Shown: positions 36,830 to 52,940 of the stretch, piece after piece
How positions within the stretch are numbered: the first letter of the stretch is position 1
Layout: each line of letters begins with the position of its first letter
NCBI GenBank assembly: GCA_032906765.1
Contig: JAJTZB010000003.1
Location: 141,072 to 205,071 of the forward strand
DNA: 64,000 bases
Source of the DNA: Nitrososphaerales archaeon
GTDB taxonomy: Archaea; Thermoproteota; Nitrososphaeria; Nitrososphaerales; Gagatemarchaeaceae
Direction: 5' to 3'
The notes under the pieces: model-generated
Databases searched by the model: none
Told to the model about the DNA's origin: nothing
What the model saw: only the letters and a program-made list of their open reading frames with translations
Program-made: the position numbers and the translations under genes

Positions 36830-39800
36830 TTGAGGTTTGACGAACTCCAACTACCACCTGAGCTCCTCTCTTTCATAGCGCGTAAGGGCTTCGCCGAACT
36901 CTACCCTCCGCAGGAGGAGGCCGTGAAAGCCGGCCTGCTCGCGGGGAAGAACCTGGTCGTATCGAGTCCGACAGCCTGCTATGACGGGAAGACAGAAGTG
37001 CTCACTAGAACGGGATGGAAGTCATTCAAGGACGTGGACTCGAATGAAGAAGTCCTGTCCATGAATCCGAAGACATTCGGAATGGAGTATGTCAAGGCGA
37101 TTGGCAAAGTCGGATACCCGTACACAGGAGTAATGGTGCATGTTGAGGGGAAAGAGATCGACTTCAGAGTTACTGCGAATCACAACATGTTCGTATGCCG
37201 CGAAGATGAGAGGAAAGCCAGAAACCCGTTATCGTCTCGACCCAATGGGCGACAACCGGCAAGGTTCGAGTTCCGCCCAGCTTGGGAAATCCACAGAAAC
37301 TGGAAATTCAAGACCGATGGCATTTGGGAGGGGAGAGCGAGTAGATACTTCGAACTTCCTCCAATGGAGGTTCGTGGGAGATATCCTCGGTCACAAAGGC
37401 CCCTCCCAACACTCAGGATTCCAATGAAGCAATTTCTGAATTTCCTCGGTTGGTACTTGGCGGAAGGCAGCACAAAGCATGGTCATGGTGATTACGAAGT
37501 GACACTGTGCCAGAGAAAGGACCCCCGCCGCGCAAGGGAAGCACTTGCGAAACTTGGCATCGCTAGGGTTTACACAACTGGGTCGGAGCGTCATCGGCAT
37601 TTCAGCATCAGCAGTCCTCAACTAGCGCGATACCTTTCTCAATTTGGCAGGACTTTCGAGAAGTTTGTTCCCGACTTTGTGAAGGAACTCACTTCAGATG
37701 AGATAAGAGTGTTTCTTGATTCATACCATCGCGGAGACGGGCATGTAGGGAGGGACGGGTCGAGTCCGGTATTCAACACCACCTCTAGGCGCTTGGCTGA
37801 CGATGTCCAAGAATTGTTGCTGAAGGTGGGGATAAGCAGTTCGGTGAGGTTCGGAGGCCTATCGCCATCTCACAGAATGCCAGACGGGCACACCATCAAG
37901 TCAAAGCATCCAGACTTTGAGATCGCAGGTAGGCGATATTCGGAGCACGGAATCGACTACAGGAAACCGAGCAAACCATCCTTTGAGAACACCAAGAACG
38001 AGACGGTCTACTGCCTGACCCTCCCGAAATATCATCTCCTGTATGTGAGAAGGAATGGAAAGGCATTATGGTGTGGTAATTCAGGCAAGACCCTCACAGC
38101 AATCTTGGCCGCCTTCGTGAAGGTGAAGGTCGAGGGCAGGAAGGTCGTCTACCTCGCGCCACTGAGGGCGCTGGCGTCAGAGAAGTACGCGGAGTTCTCC
38201 GAGCTTTCCGAGTTCGGGATAAGGACTGCGATCTCTACGGGTGACTACGACTTGAGCGGTGAGTCACTGGGTCGGGCCGACATCATAGTGCTGACCAACG
38301 AGCGCTTCGACTCGATAATGAGGCACAGGGTGAGCTGGCTGCACTCCGTGGGGCTCTTCATCGCGGATGAGGTCCACCTAGCCGGGAATGACTCGCGCGG
38401 CCCGACGCTCGAGATGATTCTCACGAAGGTCATGCACCTCGGGCTCGACGCTCAGCTTCTTTCGCTCTCCGCGACCATAAGCAACGCGAAGTTGATCGGG
38501 GAGTGGCTGAACTCGAGGCCCATCGAGCTCGACTGGAGACCAGTGCCGCTCAGACAGGGCGTCTTCGACTACGGCAAGGTCGTGTTCACCGACGGGGAGG
38601 AGAGGCCGGTGACACGGTCCACCTACGGGACGGCCATCGACGTGGCCATGGACACGGTGAAGGGAGGTGGGCAGTCCCTAGTCTTCGCGGGGACGAGGAG
38701 GAGGGCCGTCAGCCTGGCAACGAAGGCGGCGGAGGTCACACAGAGGTTCTTGGACGATGACGAGAAGCGTGCACTGTCGGAGGCGTCCAGAAGGATACTG
38801 ACATCGGGCGAGGAGACGAGCCTCAGCAGGCTTCTTGCTGAGATCGTAGCCAAGGGGGCCGCCTTCCATCACGCTGGACTCGAGGCGGAGCACAGGCGCA
38901 TAGTCGAGGACTATTACAGGGCGAGATCGCTCAAGGTGATAGCCGCGACTCCGACACTCGCGCTCGGTGTGAATCTGCCAGCGAGGCGTGTCGTCATAGC
39001 CGACGTCAGTAGGTACGATGTCGAGCGCGGCGGCAACTCGGACATATCAGTGCTGGAATACAGGCAGATGGCTGGCAGGGCGGGGAGACCTCAGTATGAC
39101 GACCACGGCGAGACGGTCCTAGTGCCGCCCCCGTCTCAGCCTGCGAGGCAGGTGCTGGAGCACTACGCGTCGGCGCTGCCCGAGCCAATCGAGTCGAGGC
39201 TGTCGGACGAGTCGGCGATGAGGATACACACCTTGGCGACTGTCGCGACTTCAGCCGGTCTCTCCAAGAAGGAGATTCAGGGACTTTTCGGGAGGACCCT
39301 TCTGGCATTCCAAATAGGTGAAGAGCGGGTCGGCAGGCTGATCGAGTCTGCTCTCGGTTATCTCCTGAGCGAGAGGCTGGTCGAATCGAGAGGGAACATC
39401 TTCCTAGCCACGGACTTCGGCAGGAAGGTCTCCATACTATACATCGACCCTGTCACAGGTGTTCAGTTCCGCGAGACGCTGAGGAAGACACAGCCTGGCA
39501 GCGACCACACAGCTGGGTTCCTCTACACGCTCGCAAACTGCCCAGACTTCGAGCCGAAGTTCCCCCTGAGGAGCAAGGACTACGACGCTGCCCTGGCGTT
39601 CATGGAGGAGCACGCGGCCGAGCTGGCTGCGAGGCCGAGCCGCACCTCGTTCGCCGAGTTCGACGAGGTTCTTCAGGGAAGCAGGACCGTAATGGCGCTC
39701 TATGGGTGGATCGAGGAGTGGAGAGAGGAGCAGCTGCTGACGAGGTTGGGAGTGGAGCCTGGCGACATGCATAGGGCCGTGGACAACGCGGACTGGCTCC

Positions 39801-40078
39801 TCCACAGCATGGCAGAGCTGGCGAAGCTGTTCAAGAGAGACGAGTCTGGCAGGGAGGTGGAGCGGCTGCGGAGGAGGGTGGAGAGCGGAGTGGCAGCGGA
39901 GCTTATCGAGCTGACCGCCCTGCAGGGCGTTGGCAGGGTCAGGGCGAGGTCTTTGTACTCTGCAGGGTTCAGGACGTTGGAGGACCTCAAGGAGGCGCCG
40001 GCTGACAGGCTGGCCCTGGTTGAGAAGGTGGGCACGGCAGTCGCGCGCAGGATCAAGGAGCAAGTGTCCAGGCTTTGA
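36830..40078 (+). CDS. hel308: Hel308 DNA repair helicase containing an intein
   Basis: SF2 Ski2-like 3'-5' helicase for stalled forks. The precursor is 1082 residues; removing a 368-residue intein (residues 50-417) leaves a 714-residue Hel308 of normal size. The intein splits motif I after SSPTA, before SGKT. Later motifs: FIADEVHL (DEVH box), SLSATISNAKLIGEW, GVNLPARRVVIAD, QMAGRAGRPQYD, and a C-terminal helix-hairpin-helix (LTALQGVGRVRARSLYSAG). Starts 18 bases after MCM; the next gene's TTG overlaps its stop. Confidence 0.95.
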   Translation: MRFDELQLPPELLSFIARKGFAELYPPQEEAVKAGLLAGKNLVVSSPTACYDGKTEVLTRTGWKSFKDVDSNEEVLSMNPKTFGMEYVKAIGKVGYPYTGVMVHVEGKEIDFRVTANHNMFVCREDERKARNPLSSRPNGRQPARFEFRPAWEIHRNWKFKTDGIWEGRASRYFELPPMEVRGRYPRSQRPLPTLRIPMKQFLNFLGWYLAEGSTKHGHGDYEVTLCQRKDPRRAREALAKLGIARVYTTGSERHRHFSISSPQLARYLSQFGRTFEKFVPDFVKELTSDEIRVFLDSYHRGDGHVGRDGSSPVFNTTSRRLADDVQELLLKVGISSSVRFGGLSPSHRMPDGHTIKSKHPDFEIAGRRYSEHGIDYRKPSKPSFENTKNETVYCLTLPKYHLLYVRRNGKALWCGNSGKTLTAILAAFVKVKVEGRKVVYLAPLRALASEKYAEFSELSEFGIRTAISTGDYDLSGESLGRADIIVLTNERFDSIMRHRVSWLHSVGLFIADEVHLAGNDSRGPTLEMILTKVMHLGLDAQLLSLSATISNAKLIGEWLNSRPIELDWRPVPLRQGVFDYGKVVFTDGEERPVTRSTYGTAIDVAMDTVKGGGQSLVFAGTRRRAVSLATKAAEVTQRFLDDDEKRALSEASRRILTSGEETSLSRLLAEIVAKGAAFHHAGLEAEHRRIVEDYYRARSLKVIAATPTLALGVNLPARRVVIADVSRYDVERGGNSDISVLEYRQMAGRAGRPQYDDHGETVLVPPPSQPARQVLEHYASALPEPIESRLSDESAMRIHTLATVATSAGLSKKEIQGLFGRTLLAFQIGEERVGRLIESALGYLLSERLVESRGNIFLATDFGRKVSILYIDPVTGVQFRETLRKTQPGSDHTAGFLYTLANCPDFEPKFPLRSKDYDAALAFMEEHAAELAARPSRTSFAEFDEVLQGSRTVMALYGWIEEWREEQLLTRLGVEPGDMHRAVDNADWLLHSMAELAKLFKRDESGREVERLRRRVESGVAAELIELTALQGVGRVRARSLYSAGFRTLEDLKEAPADRLALVEKVGTAVARRIKEQVSRL
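36977..38080 (+). mobile_element. Intein in Hel308 P-loop
   Basis: 368 residues from Cys1 (CYDGKTEVL, block A) through VTANHNMF (block B, T..H) to YVRRNGKALWCGN with Asn at the end and Ser as +1 residue. The penultimate residue is Gly, not His. It carries a LAGLIDADG endonuclease with FLGWYLAEGS and FLDSYHRGDG. All splicing residues except the penultimate His are present, so splicing is expected. Confidence 0.93.
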
Positions 40079-41535: not shown

Positions 41536-42071
41536 GCCGGGGGGCATACCTGGCCTCTGAGGACTCAGCGCTTTTGCGTCGCGTCCTTCGGCTCTATTCC
41601 GGGGGCGCCTGCCTAGAAGTCGGCGCGGGAAACGGAGGCAGCCTGCTGGAGTTATCGAGGAGTTTCAGGGTGGTCGTGGGCACCGACGTTGTGCGACCAG
41701 ATGCTTCGGATTGGAGAGAGGCAGGATCGAGCTACATCATGGCCGACGCAGCGGCATGCTTCAGGAGCGGATCGTTCGACCTCGTTGCGTTCAACCCTCC
41801 GTACGTCCCATCTGAGGGGATTGCAGACAGAGCAGTGGACGGGGGAAGGGAAGGGGTTGAGGTCGCGCTCCACTTCCTACGCGAGGCGATGGGGGCTGTG
41901 AAGGAAGACGGCAAGATACTGATGCTGGTATCCAGCGACAACCCCCTTCGCGTGCTGGAACAGGAATGCGATGCGAGGGGTTGCACGATGCGGAGGGTCG
42001 CGGACGCGCGTCTCTTCTACGAGACGCTCAGCGTTTACGAGGTCTCGCGGCGCGGAAAAAGTCAGAGCTAG
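41532..42071 (+). CDS. HemK2/Mtq2-like N5-glutamine or lysine methyltransferase
   Basis: 179-residue SAM-dependent methyltransferase. N-terminal YLASEDSALLRRVL resembles the family's Y-x-P-x-E-D-S, CLEVGAGNGG is the SAM loop, and FNPPYVPSEG is the NPPY catalytic motif. Length and lack of an N-terminal domain fit the archaeal/eukaryotic HemK2 group, which modifies release factor aRF1 with a Trm112 partner. Ends convergently with the HTH-10 regulator, overlapping by 4 bases. Confidence 0.82.
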   Translation: MSRGAYLASEDSALLRRVLRLYSGGACLEVGAGNGGSLLELSRSFRVVVGTDVVRPDASDWREAGSSYIMADAAACFRSGSFDLVAFNPPYVPSEGIADRAVDGGREGVEVALHFLREAMGAVKEDGKILMLVSSDNPLRVLEQECDARGCTMRRVADARLFYETLSVYEVSRRGKSQS

Positions 42072-42745
42072 CCGAACGGGCTCGCAAAGGGAGCGTGGTG
42101 AGGGCCCCAGCCGTTCCCGTTCTGCACCTGACTCTCCAGGACCTTCCTCTCTGCGTTCCTGAGAATCTCGCTGAGGGTCGACGGCTTGACCCCGACCGCC
42201 TTGGAGAGGGCGGTGAGACTCACCTTCCTGGGGAAGTCGAAGTAGCCCATGGATACAGCGATGGATAATATCGCCTTCTGCCTGTCTGTGAGCTCCTCCT
42301 GCTGGCTCACCTCGGAAATCTCCTTCACGATGGCCTTTCCGCCCGACTTCTCGAGTCTGCGGATTACCTCCCTAAGGTCCTCCGACCTCCTCACGAGTAT
42401 CTTCCAAGTGGACGGGCTGGAGCGCGAGCTGAAGGGGCACTGCAGGCAGATAATCGAGGTGCCGACCGAGGCACTGCAGGGGAGTGGTCTGTCAACAACG
42501 ACAAGCGCGAGCATCTTTGACGGGGCGACCTCGCTCTCGTAGACGTGCCTGACCCCGGCGAGCTTCTTCAGCTCGACCAGGAATTCATCTTGTTGCTTCT
42601 TCTCTCCTGTCATCTCGAAGAGCAGCGTCATGCCATTTCCGTTGAAGGTCCTGCAGAACTCGAGTTCCAGCTTGACTCCAGTCTTTAGGGCTATATCCTG
42701 GAACTTGTTCTCTTCTGGAACCTCCAGCAGTACTTGGCGAAGCAT
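42068..42745 (-). CDS. HTH-10 (Bat-like) transcription regulator
   Basis: 225 residues. The C-terminal segment LTDRQKAILSIAVSMGYFDFPRKVSLTALSKAVGVKPSTLSEILRN is the HTH_10 domain common in archaeal bacterio-opsin-activator-like regulators. The N-terminal ~160 residues form a ligand or sensor domain with two nearby Cys (SIICLQCPF) that could be redox sensing. A minus-strand CTTATAATC about 30 bases before the ATG is the probable promoter. Confidence 0.85.
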   Translation of the reverse strand: MLRQVLLEVPEENKFQDIALKTGVKLELEFCRTFNGNGMTLLFEMTGEKKQQDEFLVELKKLAGVRHVYESEVAPSKMLALVVVDRPLPCSASVGTSIICLQCPFSSRSSPSTWKILVRRSEDLREVIRRLEKSGGKAIVKEISEVSQQEELTDRQKAILSIAVSMGYFDFPRKVSLTALSKAVGVKPSTLSEILRNAERKVLESQVQNGNGWGPHHAPFASPFG

Positions 42746-42911: not shown

Positions 42912-42959
42912 ATGCCAACGCCTCGAACCCCGCGCCACCATCCTTTGCATGATAGGTGA
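42912..42959 (+). other. 15-codon open frame behind a strong Shine-Dalgarno
   Basis: GGAGGTGA at 42901-42908 sits three bases before an ATG opening a 15-residue frame (MPTPRTPRHHPLHDR). Too short to call a gene; it may be a leader peptide or the truncated start of a gene broken when the element inserted at 42981. Elsewhere in the 42746-43131 gap I see the att-like repeat and a TATA-like box only. Confidence 0.25.
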
Positions 42960-42980: not shown

Positions 42981-43000
42981 GCGGGCCCGGAGGGATGCGA
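42981..43000 (+). repeat. Left attachment-like site (degenerate copy of tRNA-Arg 3' end)
   Basis: GCGGGCCCGGAGGGATGCGA matches the tRNA 3' end at 46423-46442 (GCGGGCCCGGTGGGATTCGA) at 18 of 20 positions in direct orientation. It is the expected displaced tRNA end left by integration of an element between the two copies. Confidence 0.6.
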
Positions 43001-43131
43001 TTAGTTATTTAAGCGAATCTCATGGCACGATTTGGTTTCGTTTGTTCAGTTGACCGCCGCTCGGTCGGCTGACTTCTCGCAGCGAAAAGCATCTAATGGC
43101 GTATGTGAACGAAGGGAGCGAAACTACCTGG

Positions 43132-43851
43132 CTAGGCGGTTATACTGTCTACCACTACAGCATAGGAGCCATAATAGAAATTGGCCGTTCCGTTGTCTCC
43201 TGACGAGCCCCCCGCACCTGGAGAGGGCACCGAGGAATAGGCATCGGGACCTCCATACGCAACAGTGTACCACGAACCCGAAGGAAAGCTTATTGTCACC
43301 GAGGGTTCGTAAACCGCATTCACAGACACCGACCCGCCTGTCTCGCTATAGACATCAATGTGGTAGTACCTAGTGAATGACGTCTGCGTACAACCAAAGC
43401 AAGGTGAATATGATACATACCAAACGCTTTCAAGTTGGGCACCAGAGCCAGCTGTGGATGTCAGCAGACCGTAAGCGGCATCAGCCTGCGAGAAGGTAAC
43501 ATACAAGTTCCCGAAATAGTAAGTGGCATACGGTCCATTTGGATTGAAATCAATTTCGGCCGTAGCGCTAGGAGCAGCTGGGCAACTTCCATCATTGCAG
43601 TAACTGACCGCAGAAGAGGAATAGATCAAAGCCCACCCATAGTTCAGGTTTGGATATGCGCATCGGTAGGTACTTGCGGCGCCAAATGACCAAGAAACAC
43701 ACGTCAGACTCGATGGGTTTGAAGCGTAATTCTGGTACGGAGGCTGAATTGTATTACTGGACGCGAAGACTGTACCAATTTGCGGCGCTATCAAGAACAG
43801 TGAGGCAACGTATGCCCATATGATCAGACCGTAGCGGGTCTCCATGTTCAA
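43132..43851 (-). CDS. Secreted Cys-containing protein, element cargo, unknown
   Basis: 239 residues. An N-terminal signal segment (YGLIIWAYVASLFLIAPQIGTVFA) precedes a domain rich in Tyr, Ser, Ala and Asn with several Cys pairs (TCVSW, RCAYP, YCNDGSC, PCFGC), suggesting disulfide-stabilised beta structure outside the cell. No family recognised. Its ATG overlaps the stop of the preceding gene (ATGA), so both are translated together. The coding sequence is visibly less GC-rich than the housekeeping genes. Confidence 0.6.
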   Translation of the reverse strand: MNMETRYGLIIWAYVASLFLIAPQIGTVFASSNTIQPPYQNYASNPSSLTCVSWSFGAASTYRCAYPNLNYGWALIYSSSAVSYCNDGSCPAAPSATAEIDFNPNGPYATYYFGNLYVTFSQADAAYGLLTSTAGSGAQLESVWYVSYSPCFGCTQTSFTRYYHIDVYSETGGSVSVNAVYEPSVTISFPSGSWYTVAYGGPDAYSSVPSPGAGGSSGDNGTANFYYGSYAVVVDSITA

Positions 43852-44468
43852 GCCACCACCTGGATAACAAAGGGAAAAGTGGTAACCGCATATCCAGGGC
43901 CGACAGTGTCTGGCTGCAACACTTGTAGCCAGAGGGACTCGTTTCCTGCTTCGGTTGCCGAAACAAACACTACTACGGGGAAGGTTACGTGATTAGGACC
44001 TTCGGTTGTCTCTGGGAACGTGGTGCCTTGGGGATAAGCTACGGTGACACCTGATGGAAGCGAAGTAGACTTTTCAGTGAGTGGAGGCGCAAGGACGTCC
44101 TGATTGGGACTAGTCACAACAATCGTGAGCGCCCCTGAAGCTTGCGAATTGACACTGAAGAATAACATCGTAGAGTGTCCAGCGACTACGATGGTTGACG
44201 AATTAACTAATTGGACTTGCGCGGCATATCCATGTTCGGCTATCGTCGTCGTAAATTGGTGAGATTGGATGCCAGTTCCGTGGCCGACGAAGGCGACGGC
44301 CCCTACGACCATCAACGTAAGAATGAGTACTGACACGAAGACAAAGGCGGCATAATTGCTGCGCTGAACGCCGGCACCAGCACGACGGATTCCGTTAGGG
44401 ATGTGTGGGCCTGCAAGCCCGTATCCATAGAGCCGCCCTTGCCCGCGATTCTCCAACCGAACCTTCAC
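43848..44468 (-). CDS. Membrane-anchored extracytoplasmic protein, element cargo, unknown
   Basis: 206 residues. A basic N-terminus of ~36 residues precedes one membrane helix (YAAFVFVSVLILTLMVVGAVAFVG); the remaining ~140 residues are beta-rich with Thr/Ser/Val and resemble an Ig-like or CARDB-type extracellular domain, without a firm match. A TATA box 27 bases before the ATG makes it the first gene of a two-gene unit with the Cys-rich secreted protein. Confidence 0.6.
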   Translation of the reverse strand: MKVRLENRGQGRLYGYGLAGPHIPNGIRRAGAGVQRSNYAAFVFVSVLILTLMVVGAVAFVGHGTGIQSHQFTTTIAEHGYAAQVQLVNSSTIVVAGHSTMLFFSVNSQASGALTIVVTSPNQDVLAPPLTEKSTSLPSGVTVAYPQGTTFPETTEGPNHVTFPVVVFVSATEAGNESLWLQVLQPDTVGPGYAVTTFPFVIQVVA

Positions 44469-44489
44469 GCGTTCTTATCGTGGCAAAGC

Positions 44490-44499
44490 AGTTATTTAT
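44490..44499 (-). promoter_or_regulatory. TATA box of the element's secreted-protein pair
   Basis: Minus-strand CATAAATAAC is centred 27 bases from the ATG at 44468, fitting a leaderless transcript. From 44500 to 44835 no gene is supported. Confidence 0.5.
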
Positions 44500-44835
44500 G
44501 CCTTTCACATAGGACTTCGACGTGAATATCATGTGAATCCTAGCGTAATCTTGTTAAGAGGCCAGTATTGGCGGTCAAGTGCGCGGCACATAAACAATTA
44601 CGCCCTCTGACAGCCGTCTCGATAATCGTCCTCACTCTCATTCGCTCGATGGAGTTCGCCCTCCGTCCCCTCTTCCGCCCCGACTAATACATTCCTCCCA
44701 GGCCTGCCGGGGTGGAACAGGCATCTTCGCTACTTGGAAAATAGGAGGGTCTGTTCCTCCCTTCAATGGTACCCATACCAGAATCTCCTCTATCTTCCAA
44801 TCAGAGTTCATTCCACTCCCCCTTCTTGGCGAGCA

Positions 44836-45066
44836 CATACCAGCTGACGCCCCCCGAGTGAGCAGAGCGAGTGAGGGCCCCGCAGGGGTGAAGGCGAAGA
44901 ACGAGCGGAGGAGCAAAGAGGGGGGAGGGAGCCCCGACCGTGGGGAGGGGCGGAAGGCCGTGAGGAGCGAAGGAGCGAAGCGACCAAGCGACGGACACGG
45001 CGAGCGAAGTGAGGGGGTGAATTTGCGATGAGCGAAGTCCGAGCCTGAAGGGCGCCGGCTGGTATG
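44836..45066. repeat. Purine-rich tract bounded by 17-bp inverted repeats
   Basis: CATACCAGCTGACGCCC (44836-44852) pairs with GGGCGCCGGCTGGTATG (45050-45066): 15 Watson-Crick pairs, one wobble, one mismatch. The 197 bases between are strongly purine-biased and contain degenerate GAGCGAAG units near 44968-45037, plus short CCCC..GGGG hairpins. No frame is convincing. It could be a replication origin of the element, a structured RNA, or a fossil insertion. Confidence 0.5.
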
Positions 45067-45082
45067 GGCGAGCCTTCCTCGC

Positions 45083-46327
45083 TCAGAATGGAACCTTTAC
45101 TATCGCCTCTCCGTCTGGAAGGGAGGCGACGTACTCGAACCCTTGGCCTATGTACGACCTGACCTCTCCTATTGGAATTATCTTCTGCCTTGAGCCGTTG
45201 TCAGCCATCATTCCCGCTAACTTCTGCCTGACCAGGCTTTGAAGCTCCTCACTGCTCATCTCGTCTAGGTTCATCTTCTCGATGTCCTCTTTCTGGAACC
45301 CTGCCACTAATAGGAACTGCTCGTTGAAGGTTCTCTTGATCTGCTCTTCGGTTGCTGACTCGGTTTTTGTCGATAGAAGGGGCTCGCACTTCTTGTAAGC
45401 CTCCCTCATCTCCTCGATCATGGTGGGCGGGAGCCTGCCCTTGTTGGTTGAGTACCTGGCATCTATGTCTCCCTTGTGCCCCATCAGGAATTGAAGGTAG
45501 GGATGGGAGATCAGTCCTTTTGACTCGGCGATGATCATTCCAGTATCGCAGTAGGCTCTTAGGACATAGGGCCTCCGTGAAAAGCCCGCCTTTACAATCG
45601 CCTCCTTGATGTCCCTCGTCACCAGTGATGTCCTCAGGAACGCGTTCTTCTTCACTCCTCTTGGGTCGAATGCTAGAAGAGGGCTCTGAGGCGTTAGCTT
45701 CTCTCCATGCTTGACCCTCTCCTCCACGTATTCCTGAATGTACGTAATTGCCTCATCTCCCACGAATGTGAAGTATTGATGTCTGGCCTTGTTTAGCGGA
45801 TTCTTGATGCTGAGTATCGAGGGAACCTTACCGAAAGAGATTCCTTCGCCTGTAATCTTCGATTCTTTGAAGTCTCCGAGCCTTATTCCATCCGTGCCCG
45901 TGAAGTTACCCAAACTCTCAGGTCTCAATCCGCCCAGGGCCATCAGAGCGATGGACACTCTGCATCTGCGCGATGCCATCCTCAGAATCTTTGCAAGCTC
46001 CTCCTTGCTGGGCACTCTCTCATTCGCAATCGTGGGGGTCTCCGACCTTCCCTTGATATTCACCTTCAGCTTTACGTCAACGTTGTTGTAAGACAGCCAG
46101 GAGAGGATCACCTTCTTGAACCTCTGGATGTAGGAGCCTGCCTTTCCCTTCTTCTCCATCTCTCTTACAAAGTCCGTAAAGTCGTCCCTGAATCTCTTTG
46201 ATGGGCCATCCTTGAGAATCTCCTTCGGGTCGGCATGCACCAAGTCACAATAGAGGCCGAGCGTCCTGAGGTAAACCTCAGCCGTGATGGCTGAGTTAGC
46301 GGCCAGGTTATCGTGCCATCTGCTCAC
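45083..46327 (-). CDS. Tyrosine recombinase/integrase of the integrated element
   Basis: At least 414 residues. An N-terminal SAM-like DNA-binding domain (ITAEVYLRTLGLYCDL) is followed by a catalytic domain with ALGGLRPESL (Arg I), RPYVLRAYCDT (Arg II), FLMGHKGDID (His) and ARYSTNKG (nucleophile Tyr). The Gly-His and Arg-Tyr spacing is archaeal type. GTG 46327 is the first usual start, but the frame stays open upstream (KYGKYGDLLNDKDVSRW) into the tRNA-Arg gene, so the true N-terminus may be separated from its start by integration. Confidence 0.88.
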   Translation of the reverse strand: MSRWHDNLAANSAITAEVYLRTLGLYCDLVHADPKEILKDGPSKRFRDDFTDFVREMEKKGKAGSYIQRFKKVILSWLSYNNVDVKLKVNIKGRSETPTIANERVPSKEELAKILRMASRRCRVSIALMALGGLRPESLGNFTGTDGIRLGDFKESKITGEGISFGKVPSILSIKNPLNKARHQYFTFVGDEAITYIQEYVEERVKHGEKLTPQSPLLAFDPRGVKKNAFLRTSLVTRDIKEAIVKAGFSRRPYVLRAYCDTGMIIAESKGLISHPYLQFLMGHKGDIDARYSTNKGRLPPTMIEEMREAYKKCEPLLSTKTESATEEQIKRTFNEQFLLVAGFQKEDIEKMNLDEMSSEELQSLVRQKLAGMMADNGSRQKIIPIGEVRSYIGQGFEYVASLPDGEAIVKVPF

Positions 46328-46422
46328 GTCCTTATCGTTCAGTAGGTCGCCGTACTTCCCGTATTTGGCATGAGGTAGCTGGCAGAGGGGCGTTCTAATG
46401 AGGGATTCGCTTATGATTCTAA

Positions 46423-46442
46423 GCGGGCCCGGTGGGATTCGA
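46423..46442 (+). repeat. Right attachment-like site, 3' end of tRNA-Arg
   Basis: The tRNA acceptor and T-loop segment GCGGGCCCGGTGGGATTCGA is repeated almost exactly at 42981-43000. The two copies bracket the integrase and cargo genes, about 3.4 kb apart. Confidence 0.6.
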
Positions 46443-46511
46443 ACCCATGGTCTCTGACCTGATCTTCAGCTTCGAAGGCTGACGCCTTAATCCGTGCTAG
46501 GCTACGGGCCC
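46424..46511 (-). tRNA. tRNA-Arg(UCG) with 12 extra nucleotides before the T arm
   Basis: Acceptor GGGCCCG pairs with CGGGCCC, discriminator G; D stem GCCT/AGGC; anticodon stem TCAGC/GCTGA with loop CTTCGAA, anticodon TCG reading CGA. T loop TTCGAAT. Between AGATC (positions 44-48) and the T stem there are 12 extra bases that form a GGTC-AGA-GACC hairpin, making the gene 88 nt. It is either a very small intron or a class-II-like variable arm. The T stem has one A-C mismatch as written. CCA is not encoded. Confidence 0.8.
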
Positions 46512-50292: not shown

Positions 50293-50606
50293 CTGAACGA
50301 CCGCTGCAGCGGAGTCTCTGCGATCCTCTTCCACTCGGAGAGGAACCGGTACAGCGCCGCCACGAACGGGTTCGAGTGGTCGACCCTGAATATCCGTATC
50401 CTGTTGAACCTCTTCTCCGTTATGAGCCCTGACTTCGCAAGGAACTCGAGGTGGCGGGCCGTCGACGAGTGGGAGAGACCGGACCTGCGCGTTATCTCCG
50501 AGATGTTCAGCTCGCCGCTCTCCATCATCACAGTCAGCACCTTCGCCCTCCCGTAGGAGGAGAAGAGCCTCTCAACCTCTAACGTCTGCAACCATCCCCT
50601 TCTCAA
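50289..50606 (-). CDS. ArsR-like winged-helix regulator
   Basis: 105 residues. One winged helix: KVLTVMMESGELNISEITRRSGLSHSSTARHLEFLAKSGLITEK is a clear helix-turn-helix with wing, followed by a short C-terminal helical segment. No metal-binding Cys cluster. Overlaps rfcL convergently by 4 bases and the 3' end of cdc6 by 35 bases, so it is likely translated behind cdc6. The first in-frame start is used. Confidence 0.78.
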   Translation of the reverse strand: MRRGWLQTLEVERLFSSYGRAKVLTVMMESGELNISEITRRSGLSHSSTARHLEFLAKSGLITEKRFNRIRIFRVDHSNPFVAALYRFLSEWKRIAETPLQRSFS

Positions 50607-52809
50607 GCTCGCCGATCAGCTCCTTCGCCGAGACGAGCGAGAGGCCGATCAGCGTTGTCCTGCCCCTCATACCCCTCCCGGAGAGCTGCGTCTCTATGAT
50701 GCCCTTCCTGGAGAGCTCGTTGACGTCGTTCCAGACCTGGGTGTGGTGGTTGGGAGTGGTGCCCATTCCCTCGCAGAGGGCACCGTAGCTCTTCTCCACC
50801 TCACCTATCGTCACGTAGGTCGAGTCGCCCTTCTTGAGCAGGCCCGAGACGGCCATCAGTATGATCCTCTGGTGCTTCGTCAGATAGCTCAACTCCTCCT
50901 TCCTGAATTGCGGGGGAAGCGAGGCCTTCGCAGACCTGATGTGCTCGGGCAGGACGCGCGGGGACTCGGACATGTCAGCAAGCTTGCCCGCCCTGTAGAC
51001 GAGGTCGAGGGCGTAGCGGGCGTCGCCATACACGCTGGCTATGCTGGCCGCGAGTTGCATGCAGTTGTCTTCGAGAGCGCCCTCGTTGAACGCCCCGTCG
51101 CTCCTCGAAGCGATGATGTCGAAGAGCTGCTTCGACGAGTATGGCTCGAGGGAGACCTGGTTCCACTGGACCGAGCTCAGGGTGCTCAGGTCCACCATCT
51201 TCAGGTAGTCCAGCGTCTTCGAGACCAGAAGAGAGGAGAAGACCTGGTTGCCCTCCGCGGTCTCCCTGAGCCTGGTTATCGTGTAGAGGGCGGTCGGGTC
51301 GGCAGAGATCAGCGAGTCGACTTCGTCGAAGGCTATTATCAGGTGGGTGTGGTTGCTCTTCAGTCCTTCGACCAAGGCGTGAAGGAGCTCCTCGAAGCTG
51401 TACCCCCTCGACGGATAGTTCTGGCCCAGCGAGTTCAGCGCCCTTACCAGGACGGCCTGCAGCGTCTTGTCGATCCTGCAGTTGACGTGGAGCATCTTGA
51501 CGAGGTTGCCGTAGAGGGCTGCCTTCTTCTGGAGCGACTCGCCCAGCTTCTTTGCGAGCATCGTCTTGCCAGAATTGTGCGTTACCGTGAAATCATCTAG
51601 GAGATATCGTTGGTCAGAATCGACTCTAAAACCGAAGTACACCTCTTCCCCCAGAGGTTTTAGTGTGAAGCCCGTCCTTAAGACGCTCTTTTTCTGCTTT
51701 CTTGTCGGTGCCTGTTTTCTACTAACCCTAGTAGGAATTTTGGAAATGTCGCCTGAAATTCCAACTCTGTAATACAGTCCCTCATGACCAAATTGGTCAT
51801 GGGAAGATTTCTCCCTGACAAAAGCGTAGAATCCAAGGCTTCTAGACACAAATGCTACATCTTCAGCGAGCTGTTTCGACCTCGTGATGAAATCGTAGTA
51901 TCCTGCATCTAGGCTACCGTCTGTGTCCAGTAATCCAGCCAGAACTTCTAGACGTATTCTTCTCGACCCAAACTTATACTGGGATGGGATGAACTTCGAT
52001 TCAGATGTTTTCTTGTAAAGTCCTAACGCCATTAAATCCTTGGCTAGCCCATTTAGTAATGCTTGTCCACCTGTCCTCCCCGGAGTCAGTACATATTCTT
52101 GGGCTTGGCCTGCTGGATACCGGCGTACCTTTAGCAAGTACTTTCCAGATTGGCTATTTACGATAGTTGATATTTCTGCGTCCGCCGAAGTGACAGTGAT
52201 ATGGCCATTGGCACTACTTCCGTCCCCTAAATACACACCAAGAAAGTAAGGATCCATCGACCCAGCTGGCATCTGAGGGAAATCGACACCAGTTCTCATT
52301 AACTTGTAAAGTCCCTTGGGACCAACATACCATCTTGGAAGCCTTAACAGCTCGCTTACTCTAATGTCTTTGATTATCCCTTCAGTATCTTCAGATGGTT
52401 TTCGTGGGTGCTTCTTCAATCGAGTTTGTATGACTGTCAGAACATGGTCCTCAGAAACTACAAACGATTTCCCCTTTATCGGCTGGACTTCGATCATTCG
52501 TCCGAAACCATGTACCGTCTCAAACACTTTTCTTGGGGTACTATCTGGACCCATCAACAAATCTCCTTGAGCCACGTCTTCGACACGTTTGAGTGATCCG
52601 TCAAGCATCAAAACGAGTTGTCCTTTCCTATGACACCCGACCGGCCCGGAGAGCATCACGTTCTGGCTCGCCTTGGAGGCGTTCTGCACCACGCTCTGGA
52701 AGTAGAGCTCGAGCGCCCTCAGCTGTGCGTCGCGGTGGGGCGTCTGGTGAGGGAGATACTCGGGAAACAGAATACTCTCGTCCCTGAAGACAGAACGCTG
52801 CGTCGCCAA
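50572..52809 (-). CDS. cdc6: Orc1/Cdc6 origin-binding AAA+ protein containing an intein
   Basis: Binds replication origins and loads MCM. The intein-free protein is about 391 residues. Walker A is split: LSGPVG, intein, SGKTMLAKKL. Walker B LIIAFDEVDSLI, sensor 1 near LDYLKMVDL, GDARYALDLVYRAGKLAD (sensor 2) and a C-terminal winged helix (LTKHQRIILMAVSG, VEKSYGALCEGMG). The frame opens at 52860 but includes the TATA box; TTG 52809 is 34 bases from its centre and is chosen. Confidence 0.93.
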   Translation of the reverse strand: MATQRSVFRDESILFPEYLPHQTPHRDAQLRALELYFQSVVQNASKASQNVMLSGPVGCHRKGQLVLMLDGSLKRVEDVAQGDLLMGPDSTPRKVFETVHGFGRMIEVQPIKGKSFVVSEDHVLTVIQTRLKKHPRKPSEDTEGIIKDIRVSELLRLPRWYVGPKGLYKLMRTGVDFPQMPAGSMDPYFLGVYLGDGSSANGHITVTSADAEISTIVNSQSGKYLLKVRRYPAGQAQEYVLTPGRTGGQALLNGLAKDLMALGLYKKTSESKFIPSQYKFGSRRIRLEVLAGLLDTDGSLDAGYYDFITRSKQLAEDVAFVSRSLGFYAFVREKSSHDQFGHEGLYYRVGISGDISKIPTRVSRKQAPTRKQKKSVLRTGFTLKPLGEEVYFGFRVDSDQRYLLDDFTVTHNSGKTMLAKKLGESLQKKAALYGNLVKMLHVNCRIDKTLQAVLVRALNSLGQNYPSRGYSFEELLHALVEGLKSNHTHLIIAFDEVDSLISADPTALYTITRLRETAEGNQVFSSLLVSKTLDYLKMVDLSTLSSVQWNQVSLEPYSSKQLFDIIASRSDGAFNEGALEDNCMQLAASIASVYGDARYALDLVYRAGKLADMSESPRVLPEHIRSAKASLPPQFRKEELSYLTKHQRIILMAVSGLLKKGDSTYVTIGEVEKSYGALCEGMGTTPNHHTQVWNDVNELSRKGIIETQLSGRGMRGRTTLIGLSLVSAKELIGELEKGMVADVRG
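51574..52635 (-). mobile_element. Intein in Cdc6 P-loop
   Basis: 354 residues from Cys1 (CHRKGQLVLMLDG) to FTVTHN followed by Ser. Block B has VVSEDHVLTV. LAGLIDADG motifs FLGVYLGDGSS and LAGLLDTDGSLD are intact with both acidic residues, so the endonuclease may be active. The insert is strikingly AT-richer than the flanking host gene, arguing for recent arrival. Confidence 0.95.
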
Positions 52810-52837
52810 GCAGGTTTCTACTTTTCTCCCTGTTTTT

Positions 52838-52848
52838 GATATATAACC
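52838..52848. promoter_or_regulatory. Divergent TATA region, cdc6 / alcohol dehydrogenase
   Basis: GATATATAACC reads as TATA on both strands; a second GATTATAC follows at 52851-52858. It lies 34 bases from the cdc6 TTG and about 100 bases from the dehydrogenase GTG. Confidence 0.5.
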
Positions 52849-52940
52849 GTGATTATACACTGCGTAGAACTGAGGGTGGAGGGTTCAGTGAAAGTGAATC
52901 CGCAGAAACGCAGAAATGAAGAGGGGGAGACCAGAGGAAC

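Follow-up and report, generated by a model that had tools for sequence, protein, structure and literature searches.

A compact element in a tRNA-Arg gene of a Nitrososphaerales archaeon: a family with conserved termini, a conserved RNA-like tract and differing cargo

What lies between the 3' end of a tRNA-Arg gene and a second copy of that end some 3.4 kb away was the question raised by a locus in an uncultured Nitrososphaerales archaeon (assembly GCA_032906765.1, contig JAJTZB010000003.1, positions 141,072 to 205,071 of the forward strand). The whole stretch of 64,000 nucleotides that was analysed is hereafter called the window, and coordinates are window positions unless a locus is named. 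The first-pass annotation of the window had proposed an element inserted in the tRNA-Arg gene and bounded by direct repeats resembling attachment (att) sites. The analysis confirmed that a small tRNA-targeted integrated element is present at the locus, and comparison with related genomes revealed its termini, its target, the family to which it belongs, the conservation of a folded structure within it, and the replacement of cargo between strains. We consider it probable that this is a compact integrative element of one archaeal family, which combines an integrase and tRNA att sites with a conserved folded tract, likely an RNA, and with interchangeable secreted or anchored cargo. Its boundaries were defined as follows.

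42981..46422, minus strand: integrated element, ~3.44 kb, read from the tRNA side; based on direct repeats, conserved arms, composition, and element-free loci in relatives
46423..46511, minus strand: tRNA-Arg (anticodon TCG), 89 nt, intact attachment target (ARAGORN, Rfam RF00005)
46423..46442, minus strand: proximal att core, the tRNA 3' end, TCGAATCCCACCGGGCCCGC (repeat search, arm comparison)
46401..46422, minus strand: right att arm, TTAGAATCATAAGCGAATCCCT, kept in sister elements; forms an imperfect inverted repeat with the left arm
43001..43022, minus strand: left att arm, TGAGATTCGCTTAAATAACTAA, kept in 8 elements
42981..43000, minus strand: distal att core, TCGCATCCCTCCGGGCCCGC, with 'GCATCCC' in the core, probably the form of the element's own site (attP) in this family

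The 20-nt 3' end of the tRNA-Arg gene (46423-46442) recurs in direct orientation at 42981-43000, with 18 of 20 positions identical, and the tRNA gene on the integrase side is complete, as had been proposed. With up to two mismatches allowed, the 20-mer motif occurred at 13 sites in the 1.77-Mb genome, whereas a reversed control pattern occurred at none; the repeat is thus not at chance-level frequency, and the distal copy is a tRNA-type sequence. Three of the 13 sites were identified (the tRNA-Arg end, the tRNA-Ile end, and the distal copy), and the others resemble tRNA 3' ends. The distal copy differs from the tRNA-Ile end at one position and from the tRNA-Arg end at two. The comparison of composition also agreed with the proposal: among 115 same-sized background stretches of the window, none was as low in GC content (0.529 in the element; mean 0.588) or as deviant in tetranucleotide profile. 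The predicted contents were found as well, namely a tyrosine recombinase, two N-terminally hydrophobic proteins without a significant family match, and an inverted-repeat tract.

Six sister elements that share the tyrosine recombinase, the att arms at the ends, and the structured tract with the window element, and whose cargo is unrelated, were detected in Thaumarchaeota/Nitrososphaerota metagenome-assembled genomes of the same archaeal family. A seventh sister, in the window's own genome, has the integrase and the arms in common with them and lacks the tract. The integrase of this own-genome copy, beside tRNA-Ile, is 84% identical to that of the window, and the copies in relatives are 74-82% identical. 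The distal att site was found for eight elements. In all eight, the left arm has the form GATTCGCTTAA...TTAA (one GATTCTCTTAA, one GATTCGCCTAA) and the right arm, at the tRNA side, the form TTAGAATnnTAAGnGAATCC, 'TTAGAAT..TAAG.GAATCC'. The two arms are imperfect inverted repeats in every element, with 11-15 of 18 positions matching against a random mean of 7.1 (P <=0.01 each); the outer flanks gave no inverted-arm match, though one control reached 10. This conservation of the arms holds across the eight elements despite differing flanks and cargo. An exact search with the left arm returned one other genomic site, at the distal end of the tRNA-Ile sister (locus L108, 2876-15214, ~12.3 kb, without the structured tract). 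In that element, the integrase is followed by a DnaJ-domain gene.

The first-pass annotation had taken the distal repeat for a degraded copy of the tRNA end. This is unlikely, since the distal core reads 'GCATCCC' in six of the seven other elements, where the tRNA reads 'GAATCCC'; the mismatches in the window are therefore probably the attP sequence of the family rather than decay.

The enzyme expected to act at these sites is encoded next to the tRNA gene.

45083..46327, minus strand: tyrosine recombinase, 414 aa from GTG (PHROG_1, XerA-like; invariant residues; upstream alignment)

On profile evidence, the protein is a distant tyrosine recombinase: it matched the PHROG_1 integrase (E=3e-7) and the archaeal XerA model (E=4e-6, below the XerA cut-off), and R135, R257, H284, and Y292 are invariant in 12 integrase homologues. 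These residues stand at what we take to be the usual positions for the class, and their catalytic roles are assigned from family knowledge. A search of solved structures with the integrase gave no confident match. The att core lies 96 nt upstream of the integrase GTG; the gene is unsplit, and the sister genes are full-length. An integrase split in the SSV manner was ruled out by the single open reading frame (ORF) on one side of the element. The recombinase would join attP, with its tRNA-like core and inverted arms, to the 3' end of the tRNA gene and so restore the tRNA. Integration is read here from anatomy and comparison, from which we infer the reaction of excision and integration.

The family is mobile, because near-identical strains hold different elements at one site. 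Between strains YP1.bin46 (L129) and FK2_bin.84 (L133), identity is 99.6% over the 9.9 kb upstream of the site and 99.5% over 433 bp on its downstream side, whereas the integrase DNA between these flanks is 80% identical and the cargo is without similarity. In addition, integrase identity stands at 82% in genomes where the adjacent IF-2B gene reaches 69-73%. The gene order of the flanks (Hel308, Asn-synthase-like, p87, methyltransferase, HTH_10 ... tRNA-Arg, IF-2B, tRNA endonuclease, UbiA, RfcL, ArsR, Orc1/Cdc6) is kept in at least 11 relatives, and in relatives with these conserved flanks the sequence after tRNA-Arg is unrelated, with no element of the same family there. The search for an empty site was thus successful in so far as element-free tRNA-Arg genes were found; these are not base-exact empty sites, because the relatives are distant (IF-2B ~70%). 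Viral contigs yielded no relative of the integrase and no exact match to the motif.

Further possible traces of integration were observed at and near such sites. At locus L049 of genome G018, an att core flanked by both arm types lies directly behind the same tRNA-Arg, an arrangement that looks like an old scar of the same element family. In locus L129 (14752-17910), the same left arm accompanies a further distal att, which suggests that an integrase-less segment was added in tandem at one site. Immediately outside the element, the sequence CTCGAACCCCGCGCCACCA (42920-42946) is similar to another tRNA 3' end and is possibly an older att relic. The HTH_10 regulator gene (42068-42745, minus strand) adjoins the distal att and stands on the strand opposite to that of its relatives in at least 10 genomes, which may reflect a local inversion or a different paralogue.

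Elements of the family are small and variable in length: compact ones span 3.1-8.7 kb, besides the 12.3 kb one without the tract. No replication gene had been noticed in the window element, and the small elements in general were found to be without one. It had further been suggested that the element may be degraded, and the corresponding explanation is that the window copy is the dead remnant of a larger element, made compact by deletion. A 1-nt shift at the integrase start speaks for it. Compared with the sisters, the window gene has lost one base after the ancestral start, so that the position of the sisters' ATG (46371) is out of frame; unless this is an assembly error, translation would start at GTG 46327, at a cost of ~16 residues. 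With its start frame-shifted, the window copy may be immobile. Larger relatives also exist (L132, 8.7 kb; L108, 12.3 kb). However, six of the seven tract-bearing elements with both ends defined span 3.1-4.9 kb, follow the same plan, and have both arms intact, so a small size is normal for the family; moreover, the integrase is otherwise open and retains the catalytic-type residues. We therefore regard a dead remnant as rather doubtful. An isolated remnant the element is not, as a family of compact elements is now known, and it is partial decay that the altered integrase start leaves as a possibility.

The region directly behind the integrase gene carries the feature that distinguishes the family.

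44823..45074, minus strand: structured noncoding element (covariance model R1), beginning 8 nt after the integrase stop; no Rfam match
45050..45074, minus strand: 5' arm of the terminal stem P1, with compensatory changes
44828..44852, minus strand: 3' arm of the terminal stem P1, with compensatory changes

The tract is ~250 nt long, begins 5-9 nt past the integrase stop in seven elements, and has a DNA identity of 74-84% to the sister tracts. In the window, the P1 arms are 25 nt each and 80% complementary, and the stem is compensated between sequences (CATACCAGC/GCTGGTATG, TGCACCAGC/GCTGGTGCA, CATAGCAAGC/GCTTGCTATG). Among 13 sequences, double-sided changes affected 15 of 53 pairs, a value that none of 500 shuffles reached, and sliding the partner lowered pairing from 94% to 40-51%. 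With 22 sequences, the number of compensated pairs was 18, in an alignment that had been fitted to the model; over the two sets, pairing was 91-94%, against 39-51% after sliding. Conservation also extends to a 24-nt internal sequence and to several inner helices, whereas some members lack the central domain. Single-base indels together with the compensatory changes ruled out a protein-coding tract. The Rfam 15 covariance models gave a chance-level match alone (E=0.14, far under the gathering score). Judged from its sequence, the tract is a conserved folded noncoding element of RNA-like character. An RNA of the integrase-sense strand is favoured, because G-U cells outnumber A-C cells in the paired columns (42 versus 10 without L162, with 23 of the 42 G-U cells from two columns). 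A C-rich invariant loop (TCCCCCCTCTTTGC, near 44905-44930) and a G-rich stretch 3' of the terminal stem (44740-44820) could pair with each other, a possible pseudoknot.

Across 300 genomes of the order, the R1 model detected 23 copies, spread over 17 genomes that all belong to the window's own family, and a scan of 398 genomes across the phylum matched the window's genome alone; strict filters were applied in these large-sample scans, and weak copies may be missed. There is one match per element and none at the far end of the cargo. Copies adjacent to an integrase show the order integrase, tract, and then 1-3 genes on either strand. Copies without a recognisable integrase occur at loci L160, L195, and L201, and one further copy in the window's own genome (L158) follows genes for a different Phage_integrase and for an ATPase of weak HerA likeness. 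The 5' edge of the tract is sharp, and similarity runs on 3' past the terminal stem. At loci L159, L160, and L164, the tract is preceded by a short antitoxin-like gene on the other strand, similar at all three loci.

The conservation of structure comes directly from these comparisons; transcription and role are deduced from it. The tract is most likely an RNA, transcribed either with the integrase mRNA, of which it would form the 3' portion, or independently, that would act in cis for the control or maintenance of the element. Our best guess is accordingly worded: a transcribed cis-acting RNA serving control or maintenance of small elements that have no replication gene. Several points weigh against this account. 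The minimum free energy of the tract is only modestly below that of shuffles (z=-1.2), two columns account for part of the G-U excess, and the structure was both derived from and tested on related sequences. Several copies are far from any recognisable integrase, and the 84% identical sister in the same genome does without the tract, which is therefore dispensable for integration as such. In the window copy itself, the integrase may be inactive. Finally, a structured single-stranded DNA site would covary as well.

This last point leads to the main rival of a cis-acting RNA, according to which the tract acts as DNA, its folded single strand or cruciform serving as the origin, transfer, or packaging site of the excised circle, while larger relatives, of which the small elements would be satellites, provide the proteins. 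Such a site would suit elements without a replication gene, and upstream of the tract two larger carriers (L132 and L158) encode weakly HerA-like ATPases that are 56% identical to each other; pairing within single-stranded DNA also fits the covariation. On the other hand, G-U cells exceed A-C cells, though with 23 of them in the two columns mentioned above, the tract is kept beside cargo where no integrase was found, and no capsid or transfer gene was seen. We consider a DNA site unlikely, if worth keeping in mind.

That the tract is merely a strong terminator or insulator, or a hitch-hiking hairpin similar to a miniature inverted-repeat transposable element (MITE), would agree with its place directly behind the integrase stop, its bounding inverted repeats, its sharp 5' edge, and the often convergent cargo. 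It is, however, too large and too branched for this, its 24-nt internal sequence and several of its inner helices are conserved, the similarity extends 3' past the terminal stem, unlike at a transposon end, and some copies have no convergent gene. No target duplications were noticed, although they were not searched for systematically. We find this explanation quite improbable. Lastly, that chance repeats flank ordinary chromosomal genes deserves next to no credence: the distal repeat is just 20 nt long with two mismatches, but it is refuted by the conserved arms and by the site at which L129 and L133 differ, together with the motif counts and the composition.

Beyond the tract, the downstream part of the element would carry swappable genes for secreted or membrane-anchored proteins; in the window, these are an overlapping pair.

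43848..44468, minus strand: cargo 1, a 206-aa signal-anchored protein, predicted mainly beta (low confidence); 4-nt overlap with cargo 2
43132..43851, minus strand: cargo 2, a 239-aa predicted secreted protein (ORF and hydrophobic-segment prediction)

Both proteins have a single hydrophobic segment, located at the N-terminus, and neither matched a family significantly. A distant relative of cargo 1 adjoins a secreted gene in L171; in L169, a distant relative of cargo 2 adjoins a possible relative of cargo 1. Among the sister cargo examined, an N-terminal hydrophobic segment is present in almost every main downstream ORF, and few of these ORFs are alike; a Pfam scan of eight sister cargo proteins gave no matches. 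A resemblance of cargo 2 to AID/APOBEC-like deaminases (Pfam E=0.006 over 20 residues, below the cut-off) was judged spurious. AlphaFold models of both window cargo proteins, with confidence scores (pLDDT) of 50 and 34, were too poor for a fold search. Scans of the window element's proteins gave no capsid, Cas1, or conjugation matches. The cargo probably consists of surface proteins of benefit to the host cell.

Among known systems, the closest in anatomy are the cryptic integrated elements (CIE) of Thaumarchaeota, which are reported to span 2.6-98 kb, with no signature genes and with short att repeats of a median 17 bp (Krupovic et al., 2019; PMC6563490). The window element fits this class: it is multigene, with an integrase and att repeats, and contains no hallmark genes of viruses, casposons, or integrative and conjugative elements. 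Both bear integrases and short att repeats, target tRNA genes, may be small, and often have no recognisable replication gene; in contrast to CIE in general, the window family has a shared integrase, shared att arms, an RNA-like tract, and secreted cargo, and no conserved structured noncoding element is reported for CIE (PMC6563490). The archaeal "dark matter islands" likewise contain fast-evolving secreted or membrane proteins plus integrases, whereas the window element is defined, with termini and a noncoding hallmark (PMC4158269). Integrons and cassette arrays share a tyrosine recombinase, a folded sequence, and swappable cargo. The window family differs in that each element has one folded tract, with none at the far end of the cargo, and in recombining at tRNA att sites; an integron attC-like site was ruled out by the single tract copy per element. 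SSV-type elements, with suicidal integrases, also combine an archaeal tyrosine recombinase with a tRNA target, but their integrase is split and that of the window element is not. The integrase arrangement of the window is presumably of the pNOB8 type (reviewed in PMC8371274). In pNOB8-type elements, too, the integrase gene is intact beside the tRNA and the att site lies outside the gene, but most of these elements are plasmids or viruses that have genes for replication or transfer, and the window element has none. As far as the literature was searched, neither the conserved structured element nor the family-level plan has been described; nothing similar was found in open-access literature, which is weak evidence of absence.

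Two genes of the flanks contain inteins. The Hel308 helicase gene (36830-40078, plus strand) has a LAGLIDADG intein within its ATP-binding motif, and the Orc1/Cdc6 gene (50572-52860, minus strand) a Hint/LAGLIDADG intein within its Walker A motif.

The tRNA-borne cryptic elements make up the majority of the integrated mobile elements reported for Thaumarchaeota, and for one family of them the exact ends are now defined, together with a noncoding hallmark that is conserved and absent from Rfam. The covariance model R1 provides a sequence handle for finding further members, and the tract is a concrete candidate for the missing maintenance or control function of elements without replication genes. 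As a long shot, an undescribed class of RNA might drive or license the maintenance of such archaeal mini-elements, perhaps as a primer for replicating the excised circle or as a signal for packaging or transfer; if true, they would be among the smallest RNA-dependent mobile elements in archaea. The pair of strains with different cargo at the same site, in turn, points to these elements as a route by which archaea may exchange surface proteins.

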